Positions 6,180 through 58,831 of a stretch of DNA of 64,000 nt are shown here, one piece after another. The notes under the pieces are model-generated. The model did no database searches and was not told where the DNA came from. It worked only from the letters and a program-made list of their open reading frames with translations. The stretch is from Prevotella sp. (GTDB taxonomy: Bacteria > Bacteroidota > Bacteroidia > Bacteroidales > Bacteroidaceae). The number at the start of each line of letters is the position of its first letter. The first letter of the stretch is position 1. Position numbers and translations under genes: made by a program. The stretch lies in the NCBI GenBank assembly GCA_017509155.1, contig JAFWQE010000016.1, positions 45,055 to 109,054 of the forward strand, in the 5' to 3' direction.

Positions 6180-6267
6180 GGAGTTGTTCATTTTTTCTGC
6201 CAAATAAATTCACTTTTTCTGCCAAATAAAATAAATTCATTTGGCAGATTTTTTTATTGAAACTGCC
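6180..6267. repeat. 22-bp phased repeat array, four units (array 1)
   Basis: Units end in GCC or GGC at 6201, 6223, 6245 and 6267, exactly 22 bp apart. TTTTTCTGCCAAATAAA occurs twice at 6192-6208 and 6214-6230, also 22 bp apart. An inverted pair TCTGCCAAAT (6218-6227) / ATTTGGCAGA (6239-6248) could fold. The array lies in the 350-bp gap between the two mannan operons. The rest of that gap (5987-6179) shows nothing I can identify. Confidence 0.6.
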
Positions 6268-6289
6268 AGGAAAACTAAACGAAGCAAAA

Positions 6290-6317
6290 ATGGCCGCTTC
6301 CTCACGGGAGCGGCCAT
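6290..6317 (-). terminator. Rho-independent terminator after the GH5 operon
   Basis: Arms ATGGCCGCT (6290-6298) and AGCGGCCAT (6309-6317) pair perfectly over 9 bp with a 10-nt loop. Read on the minus strand the stem is followed by TTTTTGC. It lies 43 bp past the stop of the gene at 6361-8088 and should end that operon before the esterase operon begins. Confidence 0.85.
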
Positions 6318-6360
6318 CATTAGTAAATAAAATTATAATTGAGTTAAATGAAATGGTTTG

Positions 6361-8088
6361 TTATTTCAAAACCATCTTCTTTCCGTTGTGAATGTACACG
6401 CCCTTCACGGGAACTGCTACGCGTACACCCTGCAATGTGTACCAAGCACCGTCGGCCTGCTCACTACCGATGGTCTCGATGGCTGTGGCCATAGAGGGAG
6501 AGGGATCTGCAGGAAGATTCGGCAGAATGTTCTCCTCATAGTACTCGTTGGTGCAAACACAAGCCTTCACGATGGTGAAGGTCACGCCAGCCGAACCCTG
6601 AATGACAATCTGATTGGTCTTGTTCTTGTACTCGTCCAGGTCGACAACGGCATAGAGATGTGTACCGAAGCCACATGTGAGGTTGCTTGTATCGTCGCCA
6701 CCGGTAGCACACTGCACGAACAGCTGCGCGAAACCAGGTTGCATCTCTCCTTCTACCTCATGCTGTGGAATATTGATAGCCGACAGTTCCACATAGACCT
6801 TGTCGAAATCAGAATAGTCCTTGCCACCAAGCCACCAGCCGCTGGCCGCGCCTTCACCCACGATGGTTCCGTCGAATGTCTGAGTGTTGTATTCACGATC
6901 GCCCCAGCCGTCAGTAGCGATTGCGGGATCAAGGTCTATACAAACAATAGGCTCCCTGTAAATAGCATTAATTGCAAGCAATGTAACTTCTCCGCCAGCC
7001 TGATAGATAAAATCATTCAGATTAGCTTGAATATCCTCTGCCTTATACAGGTAGTTGATGCCTTCGGCTGTTGGCTCTTCAAGAGCAGGAGACAGATTAA
7101 GGTTTTCCCATCCCGAAGAAACGACCTGTTTCCATTGGGGAACACCTCTGAAAACAAACTCGATGTAGTTGCTTTGGCCAATCTCCGTTGTCGTATAGAT
7201 CTCTTTCCAGTTGGCGCGTCCATCCTTATTGAATTCCAGTTCTCCAAACAACAAAGCATCGGCAGGTCCTTCTGTGCCCTCAACAAGGAGGACGTCTGTT
7301 ATGGTAACGCCTGAACCTCCGATGAAGATTCCGTATTGCTTAAGAGCAGCCAAACCAGCTGTAGTAATGTTGACCACATACTCTTCATCACCATCAACGA
7401 ATTGTCCTTTCACACTACCTGGCAGCATCTTACCCCAGTCATTGTACAACATCATTTGATGTCCTGAAGTGAATTCAGCCAGTTTCACAATGATTTGGTC
7501 ACCCACTTTAGCATTTGCGAACTTCGATGGGCTGATTCTTATGTTGTCATTCCAGCCTATTGCTGCGTTTCCATGCCATATCGCATTGGGATCAATCTCC
7601 TCTCCAGACTCTGCAATCTCGAGCTGAACTTTGGAAACGGTCGCGTCGACACCTTGAATGACCAAGCCATAGTTTTTCAGCTCATCAAGCATGGTAGTTG
7701 ACACGGTTTGTTCTCCGGTTTTCTCACCATCATCATAAATATCTTCTGACACTTCAATCTCATTGGCATCTATAGTGATCGTGTAATCACCCTCTCCATT
7801 TGAAACAACGAGTGTATACAAGCTTCCCCAGCCAGCTCGGGCGGTCTTCAAAAGCAGTTGAGAACCATACTGCCAAGCTACAGGTTCTGGTTCAGGACTA
7901 CAAGTAATAATGATTTTGTCGCCAGCTTTAACGTCTGCGAACTCCGACTTGTTGATGGGAATGTTTGCGCTCCAATCCTCAGAAAACACACAAGGCTCTT
8001 CGCCTTCCCAAATGGTCGTGGTGGTTGACTGTGCACTCGCTGTCAAACCTGCCAGCAATGCCAAGGCACTTAGTAATAATTTCTTCAT
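6361..8088 (-). CDS. Secreted modular protein with tandem probable carbohydrate-binding domains
   Basis: 575 residues with a signal peptide (MKKLLLSALALLAGLTASAQ). Two repeats of one domain are visible: ~26-158 (IWEGEEPCVFSEDW ... GLVIQGVDATVSKVQLE) and ~169-272 (IWHGNAAIGWNDNIRI ... GIFIGGSGVTITDVLLVE). Each opens with a tryptophan-rich strand and a 'vkaGDkIii' turn. A third related stretch (~290-380) and a further beta-rich domain (~390-520) follow. The C-terminus (WYTLQGVRV ... KGVYIHNGKKMVLK) is the short conserved tail of Prevotella secreted proteins. No catalytic motif was recognised. As last gene of the GH5 operon, followed by a terminator, it is probably a surface or periplasmic mannan-binding protein; that is an inference. 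Confidence 0.75.
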   Translation of the reverse strand: MKKLLLSALALLAGLTASAQSTTTTIWEGEEPCVFSEDWSANIPINKSEFADVKAGDKIIITCSPEPEPVAWQYGSQLLLKTARAGWGSLYTLVVSNGEGDYTITIDANEIEVSEDIYDDGEKTGEQTVSTTMLDELKNYGLVIQGVDATVSKVQLEIAESGEEIDPNAIWHGNAAIGWNDNIRISPSKFANAKVGDQIIVKLAEFTSGHQMMLYNDWGKMLPGSVKGQFVDGDEEYVVNITTAGLAALKQYGIFIGGSGVTITDVLLVEGTEGPADALLFGELEFNKDGRANWKEIYTTTEIGQSNYIEFVFRGVPQWKQVVSSGWENLNLSPALEEPTAEGINYLYKAEDIQANLNDFIYQAGGEVTLLAINAIYREPIVCIDLDPAIATDGWGDREYNTQTFDGTIVGEGAASGWWLGGKDYSDFDKVYVELSAINIPQHEVEGEMQPGFAQLFVQCATGGDDTSNLTCGFGTHLYAVVDLDEYKNKTNQIVIQGSAGVTFTIVKACVCTNEYYEENILPNLPADPSPSMATAIETIGSEQADGAWYTLQGVRVAVPVKGVYIHNGKKMVLK

Positions 8089-8192
8089 AAGATGTAGTTT
8101 TATTAAATGATTATTGATTGATAATTGATATTAAGAAAAAGGTAAGCACGTCTGGTATTGCATCGGGGCAATCCCAGACGTGCCTGTAGTTC

Positions 8193-9602
8193 TTACTTCA
8201 TGAGATACTTCTTGCCGTTCTTGATGACGATGCCCTTGTAGGAGGCGTCGACCTTCTGTCCGGCCAGGTTGTAGAGGTCGCTGCTCTTCACGGCGTTGTC
8301 AGCCTGGATGGCCTCCACGGCGGTGTTGCTCTTCACCAGATAGATGCGCTTGATCACGATGTCGGCAGGAGCGGCAGTCTGAAGGACATACTGCTTGACC
8401 TTACCCTGCTTCAGTTCTGCATTAAGGTTGATAGAAGCCTCGGTCACTCCGGCAACGGTGTAGTTGGTCTCGTTCACGTCGCCATCGGGACCAGCATACT
8501 GCACAAAGGGCTGCACGTCGACGGTGGTGGGTTCAGCGAACTCATACACCAGCTTGTCGTAGGCCGACCAGTCGCCTTCGCCGAGCCACTTGGACAGTCC
8601 GCCCCACGTAGCGGCATGGAAGGTGATGGTTCCGTCGGCATTGTAGTCAACGCTCTCTGCGCCATTCCATGTACTGAAGTCCTTCAGGGGAATCTCTACA
8701 ACATCGGTTTCCACGGGCTCCACGCCCTCAACGAACTCCCAGTCGAGCACTTTCACGGCCATGCCCTGCACACGCAGTCCGCCAAAGGTGTTGATCTTCT
8801 CGGCATCCTCGGCACTCAAAGTAAATGTGAAGTTGTTGTCGGGAGTCAGCGGAGACATGCTAAGGTCGTTCCATTTCTCGTTGTCCTTCATCAGGATCTG
8901 CGGTCCCCACTGCCATGTGGCAGCATCGCCCGTAGCGCTGTAGGCCTCTGCGGTGAACTTAAACTGGTCGCCGGCCTTCACACCGGTCTTCTTGATGAGG
9001 AAGTTATCGTCCCATCCATCGAAGATGAAGGGCACAGTCTTCGTCTTGGTGTCGTCGATGACAAGGTGACCCTTCTCTGTGGTGAGGAAGCCAAATACGT
9101 CGGCCTCGGCCTCAGTAATGGTCATGGTGTACTTCTGGAAGTAGGCATTACCGTCGGAACCTGTCACGTCGGCATTCACCACAATGCTGGTTCCGTTGCG
9201 TGTCACGTCGAGCTTCACATAGGCACCATCCATGATGGCTTTGAAGTTGTCCCAGTTCCAGTTGCTCTCACGACCGTTCTCGTTGTAGCAGGCGCCCCAT
9301 CCGAAGTTGTCGGCACGCACGGCAAAGAACTCTGCATAACCCTCTGCATAGCCGTCAAGGTTGGGGTCAGCAGTGTGGCCGGCCTTGTTGGCAAGCACAA
9401 ATACGAAATTGTGCCAGTTCTCGCCTTTGCTCGAGTAGTTGGTGAACTCCACGTGAAGGTTCGACTCCTTCTGGATGGTGTAATAGTCCGAGAAGGCTGT
9501 CCACCAGCCTGCAGTGTTGTCCTCCGAACCCACTGTGGTGGTCTGTGCGCTGGCCCCGAGCGTCATCAGGGCTGCAGCGATCAAAGTAAAAATTTTCTTC
9601 AT
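8193..9602 (-). CDS. Secreted modular protein, probable glycan-binding, partner of the 575-residue protein
   Basis: The start is placed at MKKIFTLIAAALMTLGASAQ (ATG 9600-9602), 37 bp after the GH5 stop, rather than at an in-frame codon inside the GH5 gene; 469 residues result. After the signal peptide comes a beta-rich domain (~20-170) with many Trp and Asn (WWTAFSDYY, NWNWDNFKA), reminiscent of lectin-like sandwiches. Next is a domain of the type seen twice in the neighbour (~178-285: FIFDGWDDNFLI, VKAGDQFKF, GGLRVQGMAVKVLDWEFVEG), then a last beta-domain. The C-terminal tail is LYNLAGQKVDASYKGIVI plus NGKKYLMK. No enzyme motif was found. A mannan-binding role is inferred from the operon. 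Confidence 0.75.
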   Translation of the reverse strand: MKKIFTLIAAALMTLGASAQTTTVGSEDNTAGWWTAFSDYYTIQKESNLHVEFTNYSSKGENWHNFVFVLANKAGHTADPNLDGYAEGYAEFFAVRADNFGWGACYNENGRESNWNWDNFKAIMDGAYVKLDVTRNGTSIVVNADVTGSDGNAYFQKYTMTITEAEADVFGFLTTEKGHLVIDDTKTKTVPFIFDGWDDNFLIKKTGVKAGDQFKFTAEAYSATGDAATWQWGPQILMKDNEKWNDLSMSPLTPDNNFTFTLSAEDAEKINTFGGLRVQGMAVKVLDWEFVEGVEPVETDVVEIPLKDFSTWNGAESVDYNADGTITFHAATWGGLSKWLGEGDWSAYDKLVYEFAEPTTVDVQPFVQYAGPDGDVNETNYTVAGVTEASINLNAELKQGKVKQYVLQTAAPADIVIKRIYLVKSNTAVEAIQADNAVKSSDLYNLAGQKVDASYKGIVIKNGKKYLMK

Positions 9603-9639
9603 AAGCAGTATAATAATTAATGTGAATAAAATAGTTGTC

Positions 9640-10953
9640 TCATTTTCCGGCCTGCTTGATGCGCTCCACCTGCTGGCGGATAACATCGATGGTAGACTTG
9701 TCGGAGAAGAACACCGAGTTGAGTCCCTGTGCCTCCTGAGCGGGGTCGCCGGTATAGTCGTCGCCTACGCGCCACTGCTCGTTCTTCGGGTTTGCCCTGC
9801 CGCCCCATCCCCAGAAGTTGCAGCCGGCGAACTGTCCGCCCTGCAGGGCATTGTCTACCACAAGACTGAAGACGAAGCGATAGAAATCGTCGCGGACTGT
9901 GGTGGTACTTTCCTGCGAGAACGAGAAGCCATCGCGGGGGAAGCCGAACTCTTCAAGCACCAACGGCTTGCGCAGCTTGGCGCTCAACACGAGATGTTCG
10001 TCGATGTATTCCTTCGTATTCGTACACGCATTGGGCAGTTCTTTGCGAAGCGTGCGCTGATGAACCCAGCTCCAGTTGTAGGGCCACAGGTGAATGTTCA
10101 TGTAGTCGATGTTGGCATCGGAACAGATTTGTTCGTAAAGCCCCATGTCTTCCTCGCAGCCCCACTTGCCTTCTGAGCCGATGGATATCAGATGGTTAGG
10201 ATCGAGCGAGCGGATGAGCGCCGATGCCTCTGCCAACCACTGGGCGAAAGGCTGTTTGGCCTCGTTGCTGAACGCACGCGGCTCGTTGCCTATCTGCCAC
10301 GACATGATGGCAGGGTCTTCAGAATAGCGCTTACCGGTATAGCGGTTGGTGCGGCCTATCACATCGCGCACATATTGATAAAACAGTTCATGAGCCCTTT
10401 TGTTGCTGGCGAACTTGCTGACAAATTGCATAAACGGCCAGTAGCCGGCTTCATTGGGCCGCGGAGCTACTCCTGCGCCTGCATGTTCCAGATAGAACCC
10501 ATAGCCACCACTCCACTCCCAAGAGTTGTTCAGATAGAGCACAGCCACCATCTGGCGCTTACCCATCTCCATGAGCAGATAGTCGAGACCTGCAAAGATA
10601 GTATCGTTATACACACCCGGCGCGACCTGAAGTGTCGGCTCCACTTTCGTGGTCACTCCCCGCTCGCCGTCGCTACCCACAAGGATGCGCAGATTGTCAA
10701 TACCCATGGCCTTGAGGTCGTCGAGTTCCTGACAAAGACGCTCACGGTTGCCACCCTGCCCCTCACTTCCAAGAATGGCCCCATACCAGAAGTTGGTGCC
10801 TACATAATAGTATGGCTTGCCATCCCTGACGAAATGGCCATCAACCACCTCAACCAAACCGGCAGGTCTAGAGGGCTTTTTCTTGTTCGACTTGGCATCG
10901 GTTGCTGCTATACCAATCATGATAAACAGGACAACGAGCAGGCTTTTATTCAT
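9640..10953 (-). CDS. GH5 endo-beta-1,4-mannanase (subfamily 7-like)
   Basis: 437 residues with an N-terminal signal (MNKSLLVVLFIMIGIAATDAK). It opens with the GH5_7 motif VVDGHFVRDGKPYYYVGTN. Family blocks include NLRILVG, YGFYLEHAG, SWQIGNEPR with acid/base Glu224, IHLWPYNWSW, and LVLEEFGFPRDG with nucleophile Glu335. It hydrolyses internal beta-1,4-mannosidic bonds outside the cytoplasm and complements the GH26 enzyme. It is the first gene of an operon with two modular secreted proteins. The upstream -7 box at 10994-11003 supports the ATG at 10951-10953. Confidence 0.93.
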   Translation of the reverse strand: MNKSLLVVLFIMIGIAATDAKSNKKKPSRPAGLVEVVDGHFVRDGKPYYYVGTNFWYGAILGSEGQGGNRERLCQELDDLKAMGIDNLRILVGSDGERGVTTKVEPTLQVAPGVYNDTIFAGLDYLLMEMGKRQMVAVLYLNNSWEWSGGYGFYLEHAGAGVAPRPNEAGYWPFMQFVSKFASNKRAHELFYQYVRDVIGRTNRYTGKRYSEDPAIMSWQIGNEPRAFSNEAKQPFAQWLAEASALIRSLDPNHLISIGSEGKWGCEEDMGLYEQICSDANIDYMNIHLWPYNWSWVHQRTLRKELPNACTNTKEYIDEHLVLSAKLRKPLVLEEFGFPRDGFSFSQESTTTVRDDFYRFVFSLVVDNALQGGQFAGCNFWGWGGRANPKNEQWRVGDDYTGDPAQEAQGLNSVFFSDKSTIDVIRQQVERIKQAGK

Positions 10954-10993
10954 TGAGAGCTGGTTTTAGGTTTTCATTTAACACGATTACGTC

Positions 10994-11003
10994 TGCAAAA
11001 TTA
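10994..11003 (-). promoter_or_regulatory. -7 box for the GH5 operon
   Basis: TAATTTTGCA on the minus strand, 41 bp before the GH5 start. The remaining 10954-11146 gap is AT-rich with no other recognisable site. Confidence 0.6.
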
Positions 11004-11146
11004 CACTTTTTTAGGCAAAAGACATGATACTTTTTTGACGATAATCAATACTTTTCACGATCTAAAAGAAAAAGTTTGGTTAAAAAAAACAAATTGCCAC
11101 TCGTTCATACTTATTGAGACACTTGCAAACCACTTTTGCGGTAGTT

Positions 11147-12004
11147 TCAGGAACTTTTTGTTTCGTACGAATGGTAGCTCACAAGTCCCTCGATAGGCGA
11201 CTTACAGACAGTGCCGAGCACATAGCCTTCTTCGGCTGCTACTTCAGAAAGCAGGCCACGATAGTAATAGGCCACGCTACCCACGGCTCCCAAAGGAAGG
11301 TCTGGTCTTCCATAGCGTGTGATATTATTGTGGAAGAACTGTCTGAAGTTTTCTTTTACAATCTCCCTTAACTCCTTGTTGTCCAAATGATTGCTGATAT
11401 AGAGCGAAGTACTGGCAAGAAACCTGTTAGCCAATGGCTGACGGTAGGTTTTCTCAATGACATCGGCATAAGTAAGTCCAGCCCACGCCAGATAGTCGTC
11501 GCGCATGGCAGCCGGCAACGCACCCTTGAAAATGGCATTCAGGAACATGCGCCCGAGCACGGCACCACTTCCCTCATCGCCAAGGATATAGCCCAGTGGC
11601 GGAACGTTGGCTACGACATCCTTTCCATCATACAGACATGAGTTGGCACCTGTGCCAAGAATGCAGGCCAGACCCTCGCGCCGCTGACAGACAGCCCGGG
11701 CAGCTCCCAACAAATCGGACTCCACGGAAAGGTCCACGGCGCCAGAGAAAGCCTCAGCAAGGGCCGAGCGAACAGACTCAGCCCATTGCCCCACACAGCC
11801 TGCGCCATAGAAAAAGACGTGTAGATTAGGAATCACATCGGCCATCTGAGGCAGCAGTTCGCCCTTCAACACATGATTGAGAATGAACTCCCGCGGCTGA
11901 TGAACGGGATTGATGCCTTGCGTCGAAAGCCTCTTCACCACCTGCCCATCGTCGACAAGTGCCCAGTCGGTCTTGGTACTGCCAGAATCAGCAATCAGTA
12001 TCAT
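11147..12004 (-). CDS. BadF/BadG-family ATPase, N-acetylglucosamine kinase-like
   Basis: The start is taken at MILIADSGSTKTDWALVDDG (ATG 12002-12004); the -7 box at 12042-12051 would sit inside a longer version. 285 residues. The ASKHA phosphate-binding loop DSGSTKTDW is at residues 5-13, a second glycine-rich loop ILGTGANSCLYDG is near 110, and the LGDEGSGAVLGR block is near 135. These match the BadF/NAGK group, which phosphorylates amino sugars with ATP in the cytoplasm. It stands alone between the mannan locus and the MscS gene. Substrate is not certain; an amino sugar such as GlcNAc from wall turnover is the usual assignment. Confidence 0.8.
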   Translation of the reverse strand: MILIADSGSTKTDWALVDDGQVVKRLSTQGINPVHQPREFILNHVLKGELLPQMADVIPNLHVFFYGAGCVGQWAESVRSALAEAFSGAVDLSVESDLLGAARAVCQRREGLACILGTGANSCLYDGKDVVANVPPLGYILGDEGSGAVLGRMFLNAIFKGALPAAMRDDYLAWAGLTYADVIEKTYRQPLANRFLASTSLYISNHLDNKELREIVKENFRQFFHNNITRYGRPDLPLGAVGSVAYYYRGLLSEVAAEEGYVLGTVCKSPIEGLVSYHSYETKSS

Positions 12005-12041
12005 AAACATTAAAATTTTAAAATCCTGCATCAAAAAACGA

Positions 12042-12051
12042 TGCAAATATA
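12042..12051 (-). promoter_or_regulatory. -7 box for the BadF-type kinase
   Basis: TATATTTGCA on the minus strand, 38 bp before the kinase ATG. It is back to back with the box for the MscS gene in a 98-bp divergent spacer. Confidence 0.6.
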
Positions 12052-12072
12052 CGCATATTGGCAGAAATAATG

Positions 12073-12082
12073 TAATTTTGCA
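12073..12082 (+). promoter_or_regulatory. -7 box for the MscS-family gene
   Basis: TAATTTTGCA on the plus strand, 20 bp before the ATG at 12103, implying a very short leader. Confidence 0.55.
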
Positions 12083-12102
12083 AGCAAAATTTCACTCATA
12101 TC

Positions 12103-14460: not shown

Positions 14461-14524
14461 TTCTGTGTCCCTCGCTCGCATCCTGTGCATGCTGCAGCAA
14501 CACAAACAGCCCCGTCAGAAACTC

Positions 14525-14560: not shown

Positions 14561-14589
14561 GCTGATGCTAAGAATACGGACGCCGGACT

Positions 14590-20201: not shown

Positions 20202-20265
20202 ATTACTTATTATGTTTATTCGTGTAGCACCGAAGGCATACCAAACCCATTTCCCGCGTTCTGCT

Positions 20266-20463
20266 GTTTTTGAGTCGATAGTTTGCCGTTTTCAGCAAGC
20301 AAAAATGCCATTTTCAAGAAACAAAACCATTGATTTCGTTCTACGATTCCATTGATTTTGTTCAACGATTTCAATGGTTTCGCTCAACAATTCCATTGGA
20401 TTTGTTTCGCCATTCTGCCGCTTTTGTTGCTCCAACGCGTCGGTTTTGACGTTCATTTCCGGC
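20266..20463. repeat. 22-bp phased repeat array, nine units (array 2)
   Basis: Nine consecutive 22-bp units start at 20266, 20288, 20310, 20332, 20354, 20376, 20398, 20420 and 20442. Most begin with a purine plus TTT(T)(C/G) and end in GCC, CCATT or GGC. No spacers separate them. They fill the 377-bp gap between the kinase and aminotransferase genes; the open frames across them are low-complexity by-products of the repeat. Confidence 0.7.
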
Positions 20464-20578
20464 AGTCTTGGCCCTACCATCTCTTCATAGCTAGAGGAAC
20501 TTCTATTATGTTTACCTCCATTATTGAGAAAACAGGAAACGAATTCCCCAGGTGCAACCAAAGGCCAAAAGGTCTCCG

Positions 20579-39341: not shown

Positions 39342-39520
39342 GGCGGCGCATTCTGCGCCTAAATTATAAATGATAAATAATAAATGATAAAGACCAATAG
39401 GCGGTGCGAAGCGCCTAATGATTGAATATCAAATAATAATGAATAAAGACCCGAAGGCGGCGCATTCTGCGCCAAATGATAAATGATAAATAATAAAGAC
39501 CAATAGGCGGCAAGAGCGCC
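39342..39520. repeat. Array of four GC-rich hairpins separated by AT-rich spacers
   Basis: Small palindromes start at 39342 (GGCGGCGCATTCTGCGCC), 39400 (GGCGGTGCGAAGCGCC), 39456 (same as the first) and 39506 (GGCGGCAAGAGCGCC), 58, 56 and 50 bp apart. Spacers are variants of AAATGATAAATAATAAAGACC. The array begins 4 bp upstream of the first capsule gene's start codon, so its hairpins lie in the region where the cluster promoter or leader should be. Confidence 0.75.
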
Positions 39521-39558: not shown

Positions 39559-39610
39559 CGAGGTGCAGGGGTACGAGGTGCGGGGGTACGAGGTGCGGAG
39601 GTGCGAGGTT
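39559..39610. repeat. 15-bp tandem repeat
   Basis: Units CGAGGTGCAGGGGTA, CGAGGTGCGGGGGTA and CGAGGTGCGGAGGTG start at 39559, 39574 and 39589, followed by a partial CGAGGTT. It lies between the hairpin array and the 3' end of the first AAA-ATPase gene. Confidence 0.75.
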
Positions 39611-43558: not shown

Positions 43559-43730
43559 TCAACCTCAGAAAATTGAACAAGGTGTCTACAGAAGTATGGA
43601 GAAAAGGAGTTTTATGCTTTAGATTCTCGTAATGAAGACATCGATTTTTAATGCCTGTAATCCCGTCTTAACATGCTGATTTTAAGGAATTTAAAACACA
43701 AACATGTAGTCCTTGTTAAATCCGCTTGAT

Positions 43731-43840
43731 GGAGGACTCGAGTCCCGGCGGCAGAAGGACTCAAGTTTTTTGGCGCGAAGACTCGAGTAGGTTGGCGCGA
43801 AGACTCGAGTAGGATGGCGAACGGACTCGGGCAGGGTAGA
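43731..43840. repeat. 22-bp phased repeat array, five units (array 3)
   Basis: Units start at 43731, 43753, 43775, 43797 and 43819. The third and fourth are nearly identical (GCGAAGACTCGAGTAGG then T/A-TGGC); the first four end in GGC. No spacers. This is the most homogeneous of the five arrays in the window. Confidence 0.8.
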
Positions 43841-44065
43841 AAGACAACCATTTGAAGACGAAAAGGCGGGGAGTAACGCTGGCAAAGATGGGCATTTTCC
43901 TTTGGTTTCAGAGATGGGGAAGCGTATGGGAATGATGCTCGAGAACCATTCTTTCTCGATGAAATGGAGATGCTTTCAGAGCCTGAGGAGATGCCCTGCA
44001 TCATTTTCTTTCATGAAAATGAGAAGTTCTTTGCAGTAGTGTGCGTTTTGTTCGACAAAAATTCG

Positions 44066-50646: not shown

Positions 50647-50822
50647 AAACCCGACATGGCAAACTGGCATCTTAAGTTCATTTTAAAGGCGAAAAAGGGA
50701 ACTGAAACTGCCATTTTCGCGAAAGAAAACTGGCGTTTAAAGTGACTTTAATTGGCGCTTTTTCGACATAAAAGCCTCGGTTTTCTTGCTCATAACCAGC
50801 ATTTTACGCCTGCTGATTTTGT
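50647..50822. repeat. 22-bp phased repeat array, eight units (array 4)
   Basis: Units end at 50668 (GGC), 50690 (GGC), 50712 (GCC), 50734 (GGC), 50756 (GGC), 50778, 50800 (AGC) and 50822. The unit at 50713-50734 starts ATTTTCGCGAAAGAAAAC and closely resembles a unit of array 2 (20310-20331, ATTTTCAAGAAACAAAAC). It fills the middle of the 725-bp gap between the peptidase and nth genes; the rest of the gap is featureless apart from the nth promoter. Confidence 0.7.
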
Positions 50823-50977
50823 AAAGAATCTTCAACCATCTGACAATCAATAACTTACAAAACATCGCGTCCTCGCATTATTTGCCACGAAGAAAAATCT
50901 GGTGGAAAATAAGCCAGCCACACGAAGAAGAAGTGTTAAAAAAGGGGCGGTAGCTTTTTTATGTCATCAAGTTTTCG

Positions 50978-50987: not shown

Positions 50988-51077
50988 GCAACAATCTTGC
51001 AAAAGCACGAGCAGCCCGACCTTCAGGCATCGCCGATGCTGTCGGGGTTGCCGGCGCTCCCCTTACACAGATAAGCC

Positions 51078-51734: not shown

Positions 51735-51751
51735 AACAGATAAACTGAGAT

Positions 51752-52450
51752 ATGCAAGCAAAACGAATCATCGGATTCCTGAAAGACGTGGCGGCGAACA
51801 ACAACCGGCCTTGGTTTCAGGAGCACAAAGGCGAATACGACGCCGTGAGAAAGGACTTTGAGGAAGGCGTGGCACAGGCCATTGGCCGCATTGCTGAGTT
51901 CGATGGCAGCATCGCTCACCTTGCAGTGAAGGACTGCACCTACCGATTCTACCGCGACACGAGGTTCTCGCCCGACAAGTCGCCCTACAAGCGCCACCTG
52001 GGAGCCTACATCTCTGCCCACGGCAAGAAGTCGCTCCACGGAGGCTACTACATCCATCTGGAGCCCGGCCATTGCCTGCTGGCCATCGGCAGCTACTGGC
52101 TTCCTACCAACATCCTTACCGCATGTCGCAATGAAATCATGGGCAACATAGACACTTGGCGCGCCATCGTGGAGAGCCGGAAGTTCCGCGCGTTCTTCGG
52201 CAAGCCAGGCGCAGGTGGATGGGACGACGACAAAGGGTTCGGACTGGAGCACCTGAAGTCGGCACCAAGCGGGTTTCCCCGCGACTACGAGTTCGTGGAA
52301 TACCTGCGCATGAAGGACTACTGCTGCTGGAAACAGGTGCCCGACACGTTCTTCGAGGGCGACCGTTGGCTCGACGAGATGGTCAAGGTGTTTGAGGTGG
52401 GAAAGCCGATGATGGACTTCGTCAACAGCGTCATCGACGACTACGAATAA
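51752..52450 (+). CDS. DUF2461-family protein
   Basis: 232 residues. The family pattern is present: FLKDVAANNNRPWFQEHKGEYD at the N-terminus, YRFYRDTRFSPDKSPYKRHLGAYIS, GYYIHLEPGHCLLAIGSYWLP, and LKSAPSGFPRDYEF. Function unknown; cytoplasmic. Co-transcription with nth is likely from the 17-bp gap. Confidence 0.9.
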   Translation: MQAKRIIGFLKDVAANNNRPWFQEHKGEYDAVRKDFEEGVAQAIGRIAEFDGSIAHLAVKDCTYRFYRDTRFSPDKSPYKRHLGAYISAHGKKSLHGGYYIHLEPGHCLLAIGSYWLPTNILTACRNEIMGNIDTWRAIVESRKFRAFFGKPGAGGWDDDKGFGLEHLKSAPSGFPRDYEFVEYLRMKDYCCWKQVPDTFFEGDRWLDEMVKVFEVGKPMMDFVNSVIDDYE

Positions 52451-52476
52451 CATATGTTTCGGTGGTTGATACTGGA

Positions 52477-52595
52477 GTTCAGGAGTATGGGAGTCTGTGA
52501 GTTTAGACAATAGTCTTTAACTGTTTCTGCTAAGATTCATGAAATCATGACTAATGTCCAAACTCCTAAACTCCCAGACTCCTAAACTCCCAGAT
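52477..52595. repeat. ~119-bp hairpin element, copy B
   Basis: It matches copy A at 43441-43558 in length and in the blocks GAGTTTAGACAATAG, GATTCATG, CCAAACTCC, CCCAGACTCC and ACTCCCAGAT. The left arm GGAGTATGGGAGTCTG and right arm CAGACTCCTAAACTCC can pair imperfectly. It lies downstream of the DUF2461 gene, 34 bp before the rplI terminator. Confidence 0.75.
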
Positions 52596-52628
52596 AGTTA
52601 GAACCACCGAAACTTCAATGAATTAAAA

Positions 52629-52659
52629 AATCCCGGCACATCGATTGATGTCCGGGATT
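52629..52659 (-). terminator. Terminator of the rpsF-rpsR-rplI operon
   Basis: AATCCCGG-C-ACATC pairs with GATGTCCGGGATT (one bulged base), loop GATT. The minus strand then runs into TTTTTTA. Confidence 0.85.
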
Positions 52660-52743
52660 CTTATTGAATGCTGCTTTACAGTGCAAAAATGTCGCTGCTT
52701 GGCGACACCTTCATCGAAGGTGCCTAATGCATAGAATTCTTTT

Positions 52744-53298
52744 TTACTCAGCTGCGGGAGCTTCCTCCTCCTCCATCTCGGGAGCTTCAACGGGAGCTTC
52801 CTCGACAACGGCGGGAGCTTCTTCAGCCACAGGAGCCTCAACAACGGGCTCGGGCTGGTTCTCGGCAACGACCTTCACGGGCACCTTCACCTCAACTTCC
52901 TTGTGGAAGTGTACGGTAGCCTCGTAGTCGCCCACCTTCTTGGCCTCGCTCATCGTCACGATCTTGCGGTCGATTTCGATGCCCTTCTCCTTCAGAGCAG
53001 CCACGACCTGGGCAGCACCAACGCTACCATAGGTGACGCCTGTTGCAGAAACCTTGGCGGCAATCTCCAGAACGATGCCCTCGAGTGCCTTGGCGCGGTC
53101 CTCGGCAGCAGCCTTGATGGCAGCGAGCTTGTGAGCCTGCTGACGCAGATTCTCAGCGAGCACCTTCTTGGCACTTTCACTGGCGATGACGCCCTTTCCC
53201 TGCGGGATGAGATAGTTGCGGCCGTAGCCGTTCTTCACATTCACGATATCGTTCTTGTAACCCAAGCCGATAATGTCTTCCTTCAGAATGATTTCCAT
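52744..53298 (-). CDS. rplI: Ribosomal protein L9 with acidic C-terminal extension
   Basis: 184 residues against the usual ~148. The L9 N-domain (MEIILKEDIIGLGYKNDIVNV, then GYGRNYLIPQG) and long helix are standard. After ~148 comes a repetitive tail of Pro, Val, Ala and Glu (variants of EAPVAEEAP) ending EEEEAPAAE, not part of the L9 fold. L9 binds 23S rRNA helix 76 in the large subunit. The tail's role is unknown; Bacteroidales L9 proteins can carry such tails. Last gene of the operon. Confidence 0.95.
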   Translation of the reverse strand: MEIILKEDIIGLGYKNDIVNVKNGYGRNYLIPQGKGVIASESAKKVLAENLRQQAHKLAAIKAAAEDRAKALEGIVLEIAAKVSATGVTYGSVGAAQVVAALKEKGIEIDRKIVTMSEAKKVGDYEATVHFHKEVEVKVPVKVVAENQPEPVVEAPVAEEAPAVVEEAPVEAPEMEEEEAPAAE

Positions 53299-53319
53299 AA
53301 TGCAATACCTCCTTTTTAA

Positions 53320-53586
53320 TTATTTCATCATGTCAGTAACATAAGGAAGCAGCGCAATCTGGCGGGCGCGCTTCACGGCCTGAGCCACGCGACGCTGATA
53401 CTTCAGCGAGGTTCCGGTGATGCGGCGGGGAAGAATCTTACCCTGCTCGTTGAGGAACTTCTTGAGGAACTCGGGATCCTTGTAGTCGATGTACTTGATG
53501 CCACTCTTCTTGAAACGGCAATACTTCTTCTTCTTCGTGTCGATAGAAGGAGCGGTGAGATAACGGATTTCAGACTGTTCTGCCAT
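53320..53586 (-). CDS. rpsR: Ribosomal protein S18
   Basis: 88 residues. The S18 core is seen as [53 protein letters not shown]. It binds 16S rRNA next to S6. It lies 2 bp after rpsF and 21 bp before rplI. Confidence 0.97.
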
Positions 53587-53588
53587 GA

Positions 53589-53939
53589 TTATGCCTCCTC
53601 TTCTGCTTTTTTGCCAAGCTTTGCACGGCGCTTTTCAGCGTACTGCGATGCGTACTTGTCGAGTTTAACGGTCATGAAGCGGATTACCTTCTCGTCGCGA
53701 CGGTATCCAGTCTCCAATGTCTTGATTACTTCAGGCTCAGCCTTGAATCCCATCAGGAAGTAGAAACCCGTGGATTTCTTCTCAATAGCATAAGCCATCT
53801 TCTTGAGTCCCCAGGCCTCTTCGTTCACAATCTCTGCACCGTTGTCGGTGAGAACCTTCTTGAACTTAGCGACCGTTTCCTTTGTCTGTTCATCAGACAA
53901 AACGGGAGTCAGGATGAAAACGGTTTCGTAATGATTCAT
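53589..53939 (-). CDS. rpsF: Ribosomal protein S6
   Basis: 116 residues. S6 fold with [36 protein letters not shown] and [18 protein letters not shown]; the C-terminus is a short lysine-rich tail. First gene of the small operon, with a -7 box (53988-53997) 49 bp upstream. Confidence 0.97.
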
Positions 53940-53987
53940 TTGATGTTTAAATAATTAAATATTAATACTTTGCTTAAAAAAGCGGGT

Positions 53988-53997
53988 GCAAAGGTAC
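53988..53997 (-). promoter_or_regulatory. -7 box for rpsF operon
   Basis: TACCTTTGCA on the minus strand. The ~49-nt leader before rpsF is AT-rich; no S6:S18-binding structure was identified by eye. Confidence 0.65.
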
Positions 53998-54149
53998 TAA
54001 AAATTCTGGAAAGCAAGAAACCAACGTCTTGTTTTTTGCTTTTTGAGCCCGTTTTTTGTCATTTATTCACATAAAAACGCACTCCGGGGGTATCTTTTTG
54101 TGCCATTCGGGTGCATTTTCTGTGCAAAGACGCTATGCGCGGATGCTTT

Positions 54150-54800
54150 TCAGGAGCGCTGGGCATTGATGCAATGCTGGCAGAGGAAAACGTAGACGAA
54201 GTCGAAATCCTCTTCGCGTACAAAGATGCGGTTCTTGTTGAGCAGCTGGTTCACCTTGATGAGGTTGTAACGGCGCTTCGGAACGAGGCGTTTCACTTTG
54301 ACAAGCGTCGAGGTGGACGAGGTGCGCTCGCTTGCCAGAAGTCCTGTGCCAGACATGCCGGGACGTCCTGACACGGAGCCCAGCAACACGGCCAGCGCGC
54401 CCACCACCTGCGCTTTCTTTACCTGACGGGGCATCTGCTGGTGCTTCACCTCGGTTTCGTCCATCGTGAAGAGCACTACATAGTACCAGCCGTAATACCA
54501 GGCAACAAGGACATAGGCCACACATCCCAAAAGCAACATGAACAGAAGGAGGAGCACAAAGCCGCCCGAAAAGCTCGCCATCTCGCCAAGCGAGAGCTTG
54601 CCATCGCACGCAATGAGCGACATATTGAACAGCCACACGATGCCGAAACTGATGAACAGCACCTTGAAGACATCAAACAGGATGGTGGGATTGCGCAACA
54701 TGGGCACCTCATAGACCCAACGGTACTTGCCGTCGGGATAGAGCCGCACGCGGTGGTCTGCCGGATGACGGTCTGGGGATGTCTGCCTTGTATTGTTCAT
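54150..54800 (-). CDS. Hypothetical two-helix membrane protein
   Basis: 216 residues. Two hydrophobic segments (ILFDVFKVLFISFGIVWLF ~40-60; SGGFVLLLLFMLLLGCVAYVLVAWYYG ~78-105) separate a basic N-terminus with a YPDGKYRWVYEV motif from a soluble C-terminal domain (~115-216) ending in a Cys-x2-Cys (LCQHCINAQ). The KYRWVYEVPM block is a pattern I have seen in small membrane proteins of several phyla, but I do not know a function. Promoter -7 box immediately upstream (54808-54817), so the leader is very short or a downstream start is used. Confidence 0.7.
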   Translation of the reverse strand: MNNTRQTSPDRHPADHRVRLYPDGKYRWVYEVPMLRNPTILFDVFKVLFISFGIVWLFNMSLIACDGKLSLGEMASFSGGFVLLLLFMLLLGCVAYVLVAWYYGWYYVVLFTMDETEVKHQQMPRQVKKAQVVGALAVLLGSVSGRPGMSGTGLLASERTSSTSTLVKVKRLVPKRRYNLIKVNQLLNKNRIFVREEDFDFVYVFLCQHCINAQRS

Positions 54801-54807
54801 TCCGCTT

Positions 54808-54817
54808 GCAAAGGTAT
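54808..54817 (-). promoter_or_regulatory. -7 box for the hypothetical membrane protein
   Basis: TACCTTTGCA on the minus strand, only 8 bp before the ATG; transcription would start almost at the start codon. Confidence 0.5.
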
Positions 54818-54924
54818 GTCTTTTTTGGCTGAAAGAAGCATCTTATGACCGAAAAAAACAAATAAAAAAGGCACTCTGCCAAGATTATTCAACAAACGAG
54901 GATGCAGAATCGCTGCCATTTCAC

Positions 54925-54934
54925 TATCTTTGCA
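54925..54934 (+). promoter_or_regulatory. -7 box for the Y1/RAYT-like gene
   Basis: TATCTTTGCA on the plus strand, 68 bp before the chosen ATG; this argues against an in-frame TTG start at 54930. Confidence 0.6.
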
Positions 54935-55001
54935 CCGTAAAACTATAAATCATGTGCCCGACGGGGCTTGCATAAAAGAAAACAGACCAAAGAGGAAAGA
55001 C

Positions 55002-56090
55002 ATGACAGAACACGAACACTGGCAGTGGCAGGAACCAGGCAGTGCCTGGAAGGGCGTAGGCCTCTATCACATCACGCTGACGGTCACCGGCCGACGGCCA
55101 GTGTTGGGCGTGCTGAGTGTTCCGGGCGGCGATCCCTCAGCGGCCCAGGTGTGCCGAACGCCTCTTGGCGATGCCCTTGTAGACTGTCTGCTGAGCATTC
55201 CACGCCACCACCCCGAGGTGAAAGTGCTGCATTTCTGCCTGATGCCCGACCATCTGCATGCCGTGCTCTACGTCCACCACACGATGGCCAAGGGCATTGG
55301 CACGCTGGTGCGTGGTTTCTGGCAGGCCGCCAAGAAGCAGGGCCGGGCCAGCAGCCATGCGGAGCCTTCTTTCTTTACCCCGAATGCCATTCGGGGAAAA
55401 CTCAAAGAAGAGAGTGGCAGACTGCAGGCCCTCGCAGCCGAGCTCTGCGGGATGATGGGCGAAGAAGCCTATTATCGCTTGGAGCCTCTCTTCAGGGAGA
55501 TGCCCTTCATAAGGCCGATGGGGCATTATTCGCAACTCCAAAACGCCATCAGGTATATAGACATGAACCCGCAACGACTGGCGACCAAACGCCTCAGACC
55601 TGGCTTTTTCCGCGTGCAGGATGGCATCGTTATCAATCAGCGCTCGTATAGCGGCGTGGGCAACGTGGCGCTGCTGACAGGTGAGCACTATGATGTTGTG
55701 CATGTGAGAAGCGTCATGGTAAAGGCGGCAGAACAAGGAAATGCTCAGGCTCTGCGCGACTACATGAACAGCCGTGTGCTGATGGCTCGCCAGGGGGTGG
55801 TGATGGTTTCGCCTTTCATATCCCCACAAGAAAAGCAGGTCATGCAAGTGCTGATACGCGAGCGTCTGCCGTTTATCTGTCTTGCAGACAACGGTTTCCG
55901 CCACTACTATAAGCCCGCGGACAGTCTCTTCGACGCTTGTGCCGCAGGCAGGCTGCTGATACTCAGCCCATGGCAGCATGACGGGAAAAAGCGGCATATC
56001 AGCCGTGCCGACTGCATGGCACTCAATGCCATGGCCGAAGACATTTGCAAACAGCTATCCCCACGACAGCAAGAGGGCGCTCCAAAATGA
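55002..56090 (+). CDS. Y1/RAYT-like transposase-derived protein with a C-terminal SLOG/DprA-like region
   Basis: The start is ATG 55002 (MTEHEHWQWQEPG) behind AGAGGAAAG; 362 residues. The N-terminal half resembles REP-associated tyrosine transposases: LYHITLTVTGRRPVLG, the HUH motif in HFCLMPDHLHAVLYV (His84, His86), FWQAAKKQG, and AIRYIDMNPQRL (~183-194), the YI-x-x-NP block. The C-terminal third (~265-325: GVVMVSPFISPQEKQVMQ, ICLADNGFRHYYKP, CAAGRLLILSPW) looks like a DprA/SLOG Rossmann domain, an inference from pattern only. No terminal repeats flank the gene and it ends in its own terminator, so it appears resident rather than a simple IS. Confidence 0.72.
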   Translation: MTEHEHWQWQEPGSAWKGVGLYHITLTVTGRRPVLGVLSVPGGDPSAAQVCRTPLGDALVDCLLSIPRHHPEVKVLHFCLMPDHLHAVLYVHHTMAKGIGTLVRGFWQAAKKQGRASSHAEPSFFTPNAIRGKLKEESGRLQALAAELCGMMGEEAYYRLEPLFREMPFIRPMGHYSQLQNAIRYIDMNPQRLATKRLRPGFFRVQDGIVINQRSYSGVGNVALLTGEHYDVVHVRSVMVKAAEQGNAQALRDYMNSRVLMARQGVVMVSPFISPQEKQVMQVLIRERLPFICLADNGFRHYYKPADSLFDACAAGRLLILSPWQHDGKKRHISRADCMALNAMAEDICKQLSPRQQEGAPK

Positions 56091-56105
56091 CTGGCGCGCC
56101 CTCTT
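56071..56105. terminator. Terminator overlapping the stop of the RAYT-like gene
   Basis: Arms AAGAGGGCGC (56071-56080) and GCGCCCTCTT (56096-56105) with a 15-nt loop containing the gene's TGA (56088-56090), followed by TGTTGT. It lies 39 bp before the rprY stop, so it may serve both convergent genes. Confidence 0.7.
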
Positions 56106-56143
56106 TGTTGTCGTGAACCGGAGTCACGGCTGTGGCCGTGGTG

Positions 56144-56842
56144 TTAGTCCATGTCGGGTGTGATGAGCTTGTAGCCCTTGCCGTGGATGTTGATGATTTC
56201 AATCTGGTCGTCGTCCTTCAGGTGCTTGCGCAGCTTGGTGATGTACACGTCCATGGAACGTGCGTTGAAGTAGTTGTCATCGATCCAGATGGTCTTCAGG
56301 GCGAAGTCGCGCTGCAGAATCTCGTTGGCGTGCGAGCAGAGCAGGGCCAGCAGTTCGTTCTCCTTGGTAGTGAGTTTGGTCTGCTTCTCGCCGATGGTGA
56401 GCAGCTGCTTCTGGGTGTCGAAGGTGAAACGACCGATGTGATAGACCGTGCTCTCCTTGTTTTTCTTTCCGCGCACGCGACGCAGGATGGCTTCAATACG
56501 GAACACGAGTTCTTCCATAGAGAACGGTTTTGTGATGTAGTCGTCGGCTCCAATCTTGAATCCCTCCAGAATGTCCTCCTTCAGCGTCTTGGCCGTGAGG
56601 AAGATAATGGGGATTTCTGCATTGGCCTGGCGGATTTCCTGTGCCAGCGTGAAGCCGTCTTTCTTGGGCATCATCACATCGAGCACGCAGATGTCGAACT
56701 TTGTCTTGAGGAAAGCTTTGTAGCCGGCCTCACCGTCAACGCAGAGCTCAGCGTTGTAACCCTTTGCCTGTAAATACTCGCGAAGCAGCATTCCGAGGTT
56801 TTCGTCGTCTTCGCACAACAAGATTTTCAATGGCTCTTCCAT
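56144..56842 (-). CDS. rprY: OmpR-family response regulator
   Basis: 232 residues. Receiver domain (KILLCEDDENLGMLLREYL, phospho-acceptor Asp in CVLDVMMPKKDGF, Lys in DDYITKPFSMEEL) and a winged-helix DNA-binding domain (LTTKENELLALLCSHANEIL, NARSMDVYITKLRKHL, IHGKGYKL). The sequence matches RprY of Bacteroides as I recall it. RprY controls envelope/stress and redox genes in Bacteroidetes. It lies 134 bp downstream of rprX, in the same direction. Confidence 0.92.
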   Translation of the reverse strand: MEEPLKILLCEDDENLGMLLREYLQAKGYNAELCVDGEAGYKAFLKTKFDICVLDVMMPKKDGFTLAQEIRQANAEIPIIFLTAKTLKEDILEGFKIGADDYITKPFSMEELVFRIEAILRRVRGKKNKESTVYHIGRFTFDTQKQLLTIGEKQTKLTTKENELLALLCSHANEILQRDFALKTIWIDDNYFNARSMDVYITKLRKHLKDDDQIEIINIHGKGYKLITPDMD

Positions 56843-56976
56843 AATTCTTCTTTTTTTAGCGGTGAGTGGTGAGTGGTGGGAGGTGGGAAATCACCCATGC
56901 CCCGTGGCACCACGTAGCCAGCACACCTGGGTTATTATTATTCTGTTTCAAACGTTTTTCCGAACACTTTCAGACA

Positions 56977-58545
56977 CTATTCGCCCACCTGGAACACCGG
57001 CAGCTTGATGGTGAACTTCGTGCCGTCTATCTTTCCTCCGCTTTCCACGTGGATTTCGCCTTTGTGCAGCTCCACGATTTTCTTCACGTAGGCCAGGCCG
57101 AGGCCAAAGCCCTTCACGTCGTGCACGTTGCCTGTGTGTACGCGGTAGAACTTGTCGAATATCTTCTTCAGGCTCTCTTTCTTGATGCCCATGCCGCTGT
57201 CTTGCACCGAGAGGAAGAGGTGGTCCTTGTCGTTCCATGTCTTCAGCCAGATGTTGAGCGGCTGGTCGGGCTTGCGATACTTCACGGCGTTGTCGAGCAG
57301 GTTGTTGATGACGTTCTGGAAGTGCACCTCGTCCACATAGATGGTTGAGTCTACGGCCCCGATGTCGGTGTATATCTTTCCGCCTGTGTGCTCCACGCGG
57401 AGGGCAAATGAGTTGGCCACGTTTTCCACCATCTCGTTCAGGTCGAGTTCCTTCTGCTTGAATACGGCTTTCTTTTTGTCGAACATCGACATCTGTAGCA
57501 CCTTCTCCACGAGGAAGCGCAGGCGCTTCGACTCGTCGTTGATGACGCCTCCCAGGTGCTTCATCATCGAGGGGCTCTTGCTCACGCTGTCGTCGCCCAG
57601 CATCTGCGCTGCCAGCGAGATGCTGGCTATGGGTGTCTTCAGCTCGTGGGTCATGTTGTTGATGAAGTCGTTCTTGATTTCCGACAGTCGCTTCTGGCGG
57701 AACACCAGCACGAGGGTGATGATGAAGGTGATGAGCAGGATGACGGTGAACACCACCGAGGGGATGACGAAGCGCACCGAGGAGAAGATATAGCTGTTCA
57801 TCTCGGGGAAGTGTATCTTCACCACACCGGCGTTCTGCTGCGGGTCGTTGCGGAAAAGGGTCTGACTGTAGCTGTATTCCTCACCTTCTTCCGTGTATTC
57901 GGGACAACGGTACACCTCGCGACCGTCGAGAGTGGACACGGTAAAGTGGTAGGGAATGTTCACGCCGTTGTTCAGCAGCTCCACCTTGATGTCCTGATCG
58001 AGCAATCTGAAGTTGACGCGCTCCTTCAGCGGCTTGTCCGATGCGGTGTAGAGGATGCTGTAGACCACCTTGTCGAGCAGCGCCTTCTGATAGACGTAAC
58101 GGTTGCGCAGGATTTCCTTCATCGACTTGCGCGCCTCGCTGATGGTGTTCTTGTCGTTGCGCAGGATCATGGCCTTGGGCATCGACGATGGCTTCGTGGC
58201 GATGGTCTTCAGCTCGAACGAGGAATAGACGGTGCCATCCTTGCCCATCACGGAGTACTGATGGCTCTCTTGCTCCGTGCCGTCGGGAGCGCCGGTACGT
58301 GTCCCAAGGGAGTCCTTCTTATAGGCGTGGCGCTCCGTCTCGTTCACGTCTTTCTCCAGATAGCGCAGCGTCTCGTTCAGCTCCAGGTTGCGCGAGGCCT
58401 GATAGAGGGCCTTGTTCACCGACTCGTCAAACTGCTCTTTCTTCATCTGAACCATCTCGTCGATGTATTTCAGCTGCAGGAAGAGCAGGGCCAGGAAACT
58501 GAACCCCATCACAATGGCTATTGTCCAAATCGTTCTAATTTTCAT
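56977..58545 (-). CDS. rprX: Sensor histidine kinase
   Basis: The start is MKIRTIWTIAIVMGFSFLAL (ATG 58543-58545); upstream in-frame codons overlap the promoter. 522 residues: N-terminal helix, a long periplasmic sensor region (~30-270), second helix (~275-300), HisKA with phospho-His in NNMTHELKTPIASISLAAQ, N box NLLDNAVKYRKPD, and G boxes GMGIKKESL, GFGLGLAYV. It phosphorylates the adjacent RprY-type regulator. Confidence 0.92.
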   Translation of the reverse strand: MKIRTIWTIAIVMGFSFLALLFLQLKYIDEMVQMKKEQFDESVNKALYQASRNLELNETLRYLEKDVNETERHAYKKDSLGTRTGAPDGTEQESHQYSVMGKDGTVYSSFELKTIATKPSSMPKAMILRNDKNTISEARKSMKEILRNRYVYQKALLDKVVYSILYTASDKPLKERVNFRLLDQDIKVELLNNGVNIPYHFTVSTLDGREVYRCPEYTEEGEEYSYSQTLFRNDPQQNAGVVKIHFPEMNSYIFSSVRFVIPSVVFTVILLITFIITLVLVFRQKRLSEIKNDFINNMTHELKTPIASISLAAQMLGDDSVSKSPSMMKHLGGVINDESKRLRFLVEKVLQMSMFDKKKAVFKQKELDLNEMVENVANSFALRVEHTGGKIYTDIGAVDSTIYVDEVHFQNVINNLLDNAVKYRKPDQPLNIWLKTWNDKDHLFLSVQDSGMGIKKESLKKIFDKFYRVHTGNVHDVKGFGLGLAYVKKIVELHKGEIHVESGGKIDGTKFTIKLPVFQVGE

Positions 58546-58581
58546 TGCCTCGATGCCGAAGGCTTTGTAACCTATCAGCGA

Positions 58582-58591
58582 TGCAAAAGTA
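58582..58591 (-). promoter_or_regulatory. -7 box for rprXY
   Basis: TACTTTTGCA on the minus strand, 37 bp before the rprX start. Confidence 0.6.
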
Positions 58592-58743
58592 AGAAATCTT
58601 CTGATACACGGCAATTATTTCGTTAAATATTTTGGTTAAATTTACTTCAATTAACCATTAAATGACATTATATTTAATATTTATCAACTTAAAAATACAG
58701 ACTCTCTGCCTCATTACTTGTATCTTAGAACGTTATCGTCAGC

Positions 58744-58831
58744 AGCTATTCACCTGGAAGAAGCCGACGAACATCACTTTTCGCGCCATCTTTCCTTCAG
58801 AAATCTGCCGTCAAAAGAGAATAAATGTGCC
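58744..58831. repeat. 22-bp phased repeat array, four units (array 5)
   Basis: Units end in GCC at 58765, 58787, 58809 and 58831, each exactly 22 bp apart. Bodies differ in sequence, so only the phase and the terminal GCC are conserved. It lies in the divergent spacer between rprX and the BspA-like gene. Confidence 0.6.

Follow-up and report, generated by a model that had tools for sequence, protein, structure and literature searches.

In plasmid iterons, tandem units near 22 bp provide helically phased protein sites. REP/BIME repeats (repetitive extragenic palindromes and bacterial interspersed mosaic elements) are linked to gyrase and placed at 3′ ends, and the BIMEs of E. coli are thought to restrain supercoils or to insulate converging transcription; to our knowledge these repeats follow no strict 22-bp step. 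They are described as palindromic, intergenic and present in more than 100 copies in alternating orientations, together with RAYT (REP-associated tyrosine) transposases (PMC2817692; PMC3733652). The BrickBuilt miniature inverted-repeat transposable element of Porphyromonas gingivalis is reported to have 23-nt units with a leader and a tail that bear IS5-like inverted ends, and to occupy 19 loci with up to 22.8 copies and 0–6% indels; the same source mentions an earlier record of 22-nt direct repeats in tandem in P. gingivalis W83 (PMC4596501). PINSR of Prevotella intermedia is described as a 188-bp intergenic non-coding repeat with 177–184 copies, one of them 3′ of tnaA, restricted to four related species and lacking terminal inverted repeats; the available text on it contains no mention of a 22-bp period, palindromic units or a genus-wide class (PMC4755523). 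The present analysis concerns five intergenic arrays of 22-bp units in a stretch of 64,000 nt from Prevotella sp. (assembly GCA_017509155.1, contig JAFWQE010000016.1, positions 45,055–109,054; hereafter the window). These arrays may tentatively be regarded as members of a Prevotella class of dispersed non-coding ‘lattice elements’.

The arrays resemble iterons in unit size and phasing and differ from them in being scattered, in many copies, across the chromosome. They are palindromic like REP/BIME in 48 of the 76 cases tested, and a 3′-side position is shared by the PINSR-type copies described below, not by the arrays of the window's genome. With BrickBuilt they have in common that it is an intergenic Bacteroidales minisatellite of tandem units without spacers and with predicted long stem-loops; its unit is 23 nt rather than 22 bp (PMC4596501). 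The element of another Prevotella genome, G108, is like PINSR (PMC4755523) in being intergenic, non-coding and about 190 bp long with a copy 3′ of a tryptophanase gene (tnaA), and it is built of 22-bp units; it has no match at E ≤ 1e-5 in the window's genome (two of six candidates scored). The initial annotation knew of no described element of this form. This is not entirely correct: PINSR is very probably a member of the class, and BrickBuilt is a cousin in form. No description of a 22-bp lattice across Prevotella was found in the open-licence literature, which offers PINSR, BrickBuilt and REP.

The 22-bp period in Prevotella gene gaps

In most of the Prevotella sets sampled, 22 bp is the leading repeat period in the gaps between genes. 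The window's genome (G000, a 3.44-Mb assembly of 229 contigs, 82% complete) was sampled over 453 kb, consisting of the window and 20 further stretches picked partly for family matches, and its densities are not genome estimates. Gaps were taken from a home-made gene map, a lax version of which adds every open reading frame (ORF) of at least 300 nt. The lag scans, which detect only arrays without phase breaks, gave 33 segments at lag 22 as against none after local shuffling, and 23 of the 33 were mostly outside gene calls. Within gaps alone lag 22 gave 21 segments, followed by lag 44 (12), lag 9 (9) and lag 66 (7), with six or fewer at every other lag from 8 to 69. The initial annotation would have been refuted by the lack of a 22-bp peak over shuffled sequence, and in these 453 kb such a peak was seen: in gene gaps, chains of at least three TG[GC]C occurred nine times at lag 22, and not once at the 30 other lags from 10 to 40 or in shuffles.

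Stretches of G016, G024, G010 and G028 (100, 100, 20 and 100 kb) held 7, 2, 1 and 6 lag-22 segments, and in their gaps taken together lag 22 led with 16, the next being lag 44 with 10. A further sample comprised 80 genus loci around the glutaminyl-tRNA synthetase (GlnRS) gene, 1.43 Mb in total, which are the best 80 of at least 579 relatives listed; the GlnRS relatives of the window's genome are mostly rumen Prevotella records. Here 55 lag-22 segments were found in 37 loci and none after shuffling, 45 of the 55 being largely outside coding sequence; lag 22 also ranked first within gaps, with 40 segments, ahead of lag 44 (25) and lag 8 (15). G108, G085, G375 and G187 (140, 120, 120 and 20 kb) gave 19, 7, 6 and 0 segments, and the only other lag above 3 in G108 was lag 44 (17). 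Lag 11 showed no peak in the gaps of the three sets (1, 3 and 1 segments), and 273 kb from other families of the order yielded two segments at lag 22 and no peak. The tetramer did not prove to be common to the sets. At lag 22 the window's genome had 16 YGSCR chains of three or more units (and 3 elsewhere than at lag 22), as against 0, 0, 1, 0 and 0 in the other five sets; TGSC ends are peculiar to this genome, and unit sequences differ across species and arrays. In the stretches of G085 and G375 (L246–L257) exact 6-mer triples numbered 20 at lag 23 and 19 at lag 22, perhaps owing to a BrickBuilt-like 23-bp array.

The arrays of the window and the type-I family

The arrays and associated features of the window are as follows.

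6180..6267, no strand: array of four 22-bp units with ends TGCC/TGCC/TGGC/TGCC and body TTTTTCTGCCAAATAAATTCA; lag-22 identity 40/66, p = 0.0005; Tandem Repeats Finder (TRF) period 22 at 6187–6230
6218..6255, plus strand: predicted hairpin in which a forward unit pairs with an inverted one (TCTGCCAAAT...ATTTGGCAGA), with a T run after it, resembling an intrinsic terminator in sequence and fold
20244..20474, plus strand: type-I element (putative lattice element) of about ten units, outer unit ends mostly TGSC-like, central ends CATT/CAAT; 40 dispersed sites in the window's genome including itself
20333..20398, plus strand: three central type-I units, degenerate consensus RWTTYGTTSAACRATTYCAWTG, with one dyad at S and another at W, separated by 11 bp; from column counts in 40 copies
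43731..43840, no strand: type-II array, unit GACTCGAGTAGGTTGGCGCGAA consisting of two palindromes; lag-22 identity 55/88, p = 0.0005; TRF 43770–43829
50647..50822, no strand: diverged array of eight 22-bp units, five with GCC/GGC ends; lag-22 identity 57/154, p = 0.0025
50817..50833, plus strand: TTTTGTAAAGAATCTTC adjoining the preceding array; a similar motif flanks arrays in some other species, in few independent cases
58744..58831, no strand: weak array of four 22-bp units with ends AGCC/CGCC/TGCC/TGCC; lag-22 identity 23/66, p = 0.046; chain of four GCC ends

Identity at lag 22 was tested against single-base shuffles, the remaining array (20266–20463) giving 106/176 with p = 0.0005. By these values, which bear out the exact 22-bp phase first described, three arrays are strong, that at 50647–50822 is moderate and that at 58744–58831 is marginal by itself. 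TRF returned period 22 in the first three arrays only. Among lags 10–40 in the gaps of the window, chains of at least four G[GC]C were present at lag 22 only (three chains), as were chains of at least three TG[GC]C (two chains). That a GCC/GGC tetramer recurs every 22 bp was an overstatement, as it occupies 21 of the 30 unit ends (4/4, 4/9, 4/5, 5/8 and 4/4) and four central units of 20266–20463 end in CATT or CAAT. All five arrays lie in gaps of the simple gene map, in agreement with their description as non-coding, although the lax map places a 118-aa ORF (43648–44004), itself unsupported, over 43731–43840. Units like those of this array occur in L033 and L034 on the same contig. CRISPR-like or coding repeats were rejected because similar units follow one another with no spacer between them and because a step of 22 is not divisible by three.

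The type-I array belongs to a dispersed family: 40 sites, itself included, were scored among 134 candidates in the window's genome. When these sites are stacked gap-free, the degenerate positions of RWTTYGTTSAACRATTYCAWTG mirror each other around the centres S and W, and some columns are invariant across the 40 copies. The three central units largely agree in which columns are free or fixed. The outer units retain YRNYR and a T run with variable bodies, the feature first observed as TGCC/TGGC ends. A matrix of the type-I unit gave 135 matches in the 453 kb and none in shuffled sequence, and all 72 distances of up to 130 bp between plus-strand units were exact multiples of 22, in support of the proposed phasing along a single face of the helix. 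Net length change was zero in 35 of the 40 BLAST matches (query included) and ±1 in the other five; since BLAST spans may hide copies with large indels, this and later indel rates are lower bounds. At the symmetric columns 5 and 13 of two units, C-A was found in 13 and 15 of 40 copies and T-G in 13 and 13 of 40, with no pairing-directed covariation at these columns and no enrichment of dyads in the top 200 covarying pairs. Among 299 genomes of the genus, the family was found in three (G000, G195 and G269). A plasmid or phage origin was rejected, the window's type-I element having no match in the plasmids or phages searched. Several type-I copies of this genome (L001–L008, L143–L174) adjoin, at one or other of their ends, a further dispersed sequence of roughly the form CGTGCATATTCGTGTAGCGCCGCAGGC.

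The genes that flank the arrays of the window are ordinary, encoding for example GlnRS, DPP-IV, an HhH-GPD protein (endonuclease III-like), a DegT-type aminotransferase and a galactokinase-like kinase. The fifth array (58744–58831) lies upstream of a gene for a BspA-type leucine-rich-repeat protein (59015–61420). The 8-mer most enriched in array flanks is TTGTAAAG, whose eight flanks reduce to about three independent cases; a wider flank scan added window position 50819 and L057.

PINSR-type elements and turnover of unit sequences

G108 (contigs of 1.97 and 0.71 Mb, GC 41%) was chosen as the best fit to P. intermedia among the tryptophanase-positive genus genomes (69 of 398). The tryptophanase match (L239 14838–16199, minus strand) is followed, after about 250 bp, by an array at L239 14442–14591. 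The 22-bp units of the elements have the form CAAAA-word-TTTTGC, and GCGGCTG, GCGTAGG and the reverse complements of both are among the words; the matches span approximately 188–211 bp and are located in gene gaps, and all 40 scored of 286 first-look candidates were matches. Place, size, abundance and distribution, rather than a comparison of consensus sequences, indicate that this element is very probably PINSR. Elements of this type match in 21 of 398 genomes, with two candidates scored in each, and genomes searched further gave 40 matches in G108, 41 in G017, 42 in G361 and 4 in G408. The G361 copies carry other words in the same 22-bp register. The ends TGTAAATATTTTTC and, inverted, TGTAAAGATAATTC have a short imperfect motif in common. 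Net length change, queries included, was zero in 105 of 123 matches, 1–4 bp in 17 and exactly −22 in one. Mobilisation by RAYT, as in REP/BIME, was rejected: no Y1 transposase match was obtained in G108, G017 or G361, all rich in PINSR-type matches. The same search gave none in G375, two over the cut-off in G000, and others in G016, G028 and G085. Another type of array in G108 (L239 6616–6758) contains three ATGACGTCAT palindromes at 22-bp steps.

The gap 3′ of GlnRS holds arrays of different units in relatives with 83–91% DNA identity in the gene (L103, L108, L109, L114, L120 and L121); in L112, L118 and L119 it is short, with no array detected. L103 and L114 each seem to retain traces of the unit type found in the other, which would fit an expansion of different units in the two. 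Inverted pairs of arrays flank the GlnRS region in L077 (7309–7464 and 13854–14004) and L132 (6210–6354 and 13839–13971), with 97% identity within L077, 94–95% within L132 and about 79% between the two over the full array (92–96% in shorter stretches), and the likeness within each genome appears as if kept by gene conversion. The orthologous array of L139, L140 and L141 is 90–93% identical both where the GlnRS genes share 99% and where they share 86% identity, and it contains 0–2 gap positions beside an adjoining stretch with large indels. Phase and dyads are retained while sequence is replaced, and the decayed repeat family that had been considered is a poor fit. Unit words might be replaced lineage by lineage through tandem duplication and in-register copying of units, the step being retained. 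A wider proposal, somewhat unlikely on this evidence, is that a grammar is inherited rather than a sequence: a trans-acting, possibly fast-evolving symmetric DNA-binding system would impose the exact 22-bp lattice with dyads every 11 bp at hundreds of intergenic sites, with words rewritten per lineage even where related species share a gap.

Symmetry, placement and possible readers of the step

The symmetry of the units was examined by a fold test in which the 22 columns were permuted identically in all rows, an operation that keeps the period and destroys palindromes. Segments mostly under lax-map ORFs were excluded (10 of 33 in G000, including the window array at 43731–43840, 0 of 16 in other genomes and 10 of 55 in the loci). 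On at least one strand 48 of 76 arrays folded better than their permuted forms (17/23 from the window's genome, 9/12 from other genus genomes and 22/41 from the loci), with mean z of about −2 to −4 and both strands about equal. Most arrays are therefore both tandem and mirror-symmetric. A 22-bp array is also present at locus L131 of Prevotella communis E15-14, a cultured commensal of the rumen, without significant palindromy in this test. A cruder test on consensus units was weaker, with p ≤ 0.05 in 6/23, 1/12 and 8/41. L105 and its relatives are probably not lattice elements, being AT-rich, and L105 folds no better than when permuted (z +1.55 and +2.23).

A first count of gap types applied a size limit to array-free gaps and so favoured convergent gaps that hold the element; it was replaced by a recount of all gaps. 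Arrays in G108 occupy 8/14 convergent, 8/73 tandem and 0/15 divergent gaps (p = 0.0007, convergent against divergent). In the same order the counts are 3/11, 2/72 and 1/12 in G085, 2/15, 2/65 and 1/17 in G375, 3/8, 4/53 and 0/5 in G016, 3/10, 3/59 and 0/11 in G028, and 11/173, 25/745 and 6/164 in the 80 loci, the convergent bias being significant alone in G108 only. Of 36 PINSR-type copies from three genomes (25 short loci, two of which, L295 and L304, contributed nothing), 18 lie in convergent, 16 in tandem and 2 in divergent gaps, and 6 of the 16 in tandem gaps run along transcription, which is no orientation bias (p = 0.45).

The step rarely departs from 22 while the letters differ between arrays, which hints at some cellular factor that senses the spacing. 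A lattice element would comprise some 4–10 head-to-tail units, often palindromic, so that dyads fall every 11 bp and both strands read much alike. A symmetric (dimeric) DNA-binding protein could then cover two helical turns per unit, with neighbouring dimers aligned along the same face of the helix, and the filament of DNA and protein so formed would act at the ends of transcription units, most likely in supercoil restraint or in insulation of converging transcription. The arrays may thus be helically phased, BIME-like sites for such a protein, a reading that is favoured here without being held firmly. A strict step, tolerance unit by unit, mirror symmetry and the lack of orientation bias together favour a symmetric protein that reads double-stranded DNA over two helical turns, and mirror-symmetric degenerate positions without pairing covariation are as expected of half-sites in double-stranded DNA.

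Several observations weigh against this reading. The phasing of the protein-bound array originally envisaged is supported, whereas we infer the protein, its binding and the function. Significant palindromy is absent from 28 of the 76 arrays, and several unrelated unit sequences occur in one genome, which a single sequence-specific protein would not explain. The window's genome has no 3′-side bias (arrays in 5/49 convergent, 12/215 tandem and 5/47 divergent gaps), and the five arrays of the window sit in tandem or divergent gaps. A further 262 kb from the same genus showed no clear peak, the six segments at lag 22 being equalled or exceeded at lags 8, 12, 14, 21, 42 and 66. Lastly, the unit-4 word of G361 copies is complementary to unit 2 or 3 of the same copy at 5.71 of 7 positions as against 5.08 when shuffled (p = 0.0005, n = 28), a pattern more in line with hairpins or with copying from a template than with independent sites.

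In a rather unlikely alternative, the arrays are selfish or mutation-driven minisatellites. Non-autonomous PINSR- or BrickBuilt-like elements would spread by slippage and template switching, palindromes and tandems would be mutational attractors, and the 3′ bias would reflect harm to promoters. Large dispersed families, the exchange of words in register, the way in which a given gap holds unlike units from one related species to another and the short TGTAAA...TTTACA ends of the PINSR-type element are in keeping with this, as is the likeness within L077 and L132 at about 79% between the species, which recalls concerted evolution. A mutational process leaves unexplained the single length of 22, the few small indels at approximately 10–30% divergence and the invariant columns of the 40 type-I copies; nor does it sit easily with the lack of Y1 transposases in the three genomes richest in PINSR-type matches or of plasmid and phage matches to type I.

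Hairpins in RNA provide a less likely explanation again. In transcribed 3′ ends, 22-nt hairpins (11 bp per A-form turn) would terminate transcription or protect mRNA, and the folding beyond column permutation, the 3′-side placement, the word covariation within G361 copies and the terminator-like hairpin and T run at 6218–6255 agree with such a role. RNA would be expected to show an orientation bias, which was not found, and the strands fold about equally. Word complementarity was not significant in G108 (p = 0.94, n = 21, among copies with at least 130 matches of 200) or G017 (p = 0.15, n = 9), type-I columns 5/13 and the top covarying pairs lack the pairing signal, and Rfam at gathering thresholds returned no known RNA family in the window.

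Positive supercoils gather at convergent gene ends, and gyrase shows a site preference. It is nevertheless improbable that the arrays are sequence-tolerant wrapping sites, for example for DNA gyrase, selected for phased bendability and not for a recognised word, because 11-bp repeats would serve bending equally and lag 11 has no peak, and because the invariant type-I bases exceed the needs of bending, even though the same step despite different units, the YRNYR steps and T runs throughout nine type-I units, the array length of about 90–230 bp and the PINSR-type copies at convergent gene ends would suit such sites.

In bacteria, repeats scattered between genes are usually defined by their sequence. 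In these arrays spacing and symmetry outlast the turnover of sequence, so that a search by sequence returns unrelated ‘species-specific repeats’, of which PINSR is one, where a single class may exist. If a protein does read the step, as in the symmetric-protein reading favoured above, Prevotella, which is abundant in the rumen and human gut, would have a large unrecognised system of phased sites, at gene ends in some species. If none does, the arrays are a natural experiment in which slippage and template switching make periodic palindromes.

One other gap of the window is repetitive: at 39360–39497 and 39559–39609 it holds repeats of the heptamers TAAATGA and AAATGAT together with a 15-bp CGAGGTGCGGGGGTA array. 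The 80 Prevotella loci also have raised counts at lags 14 and 21.

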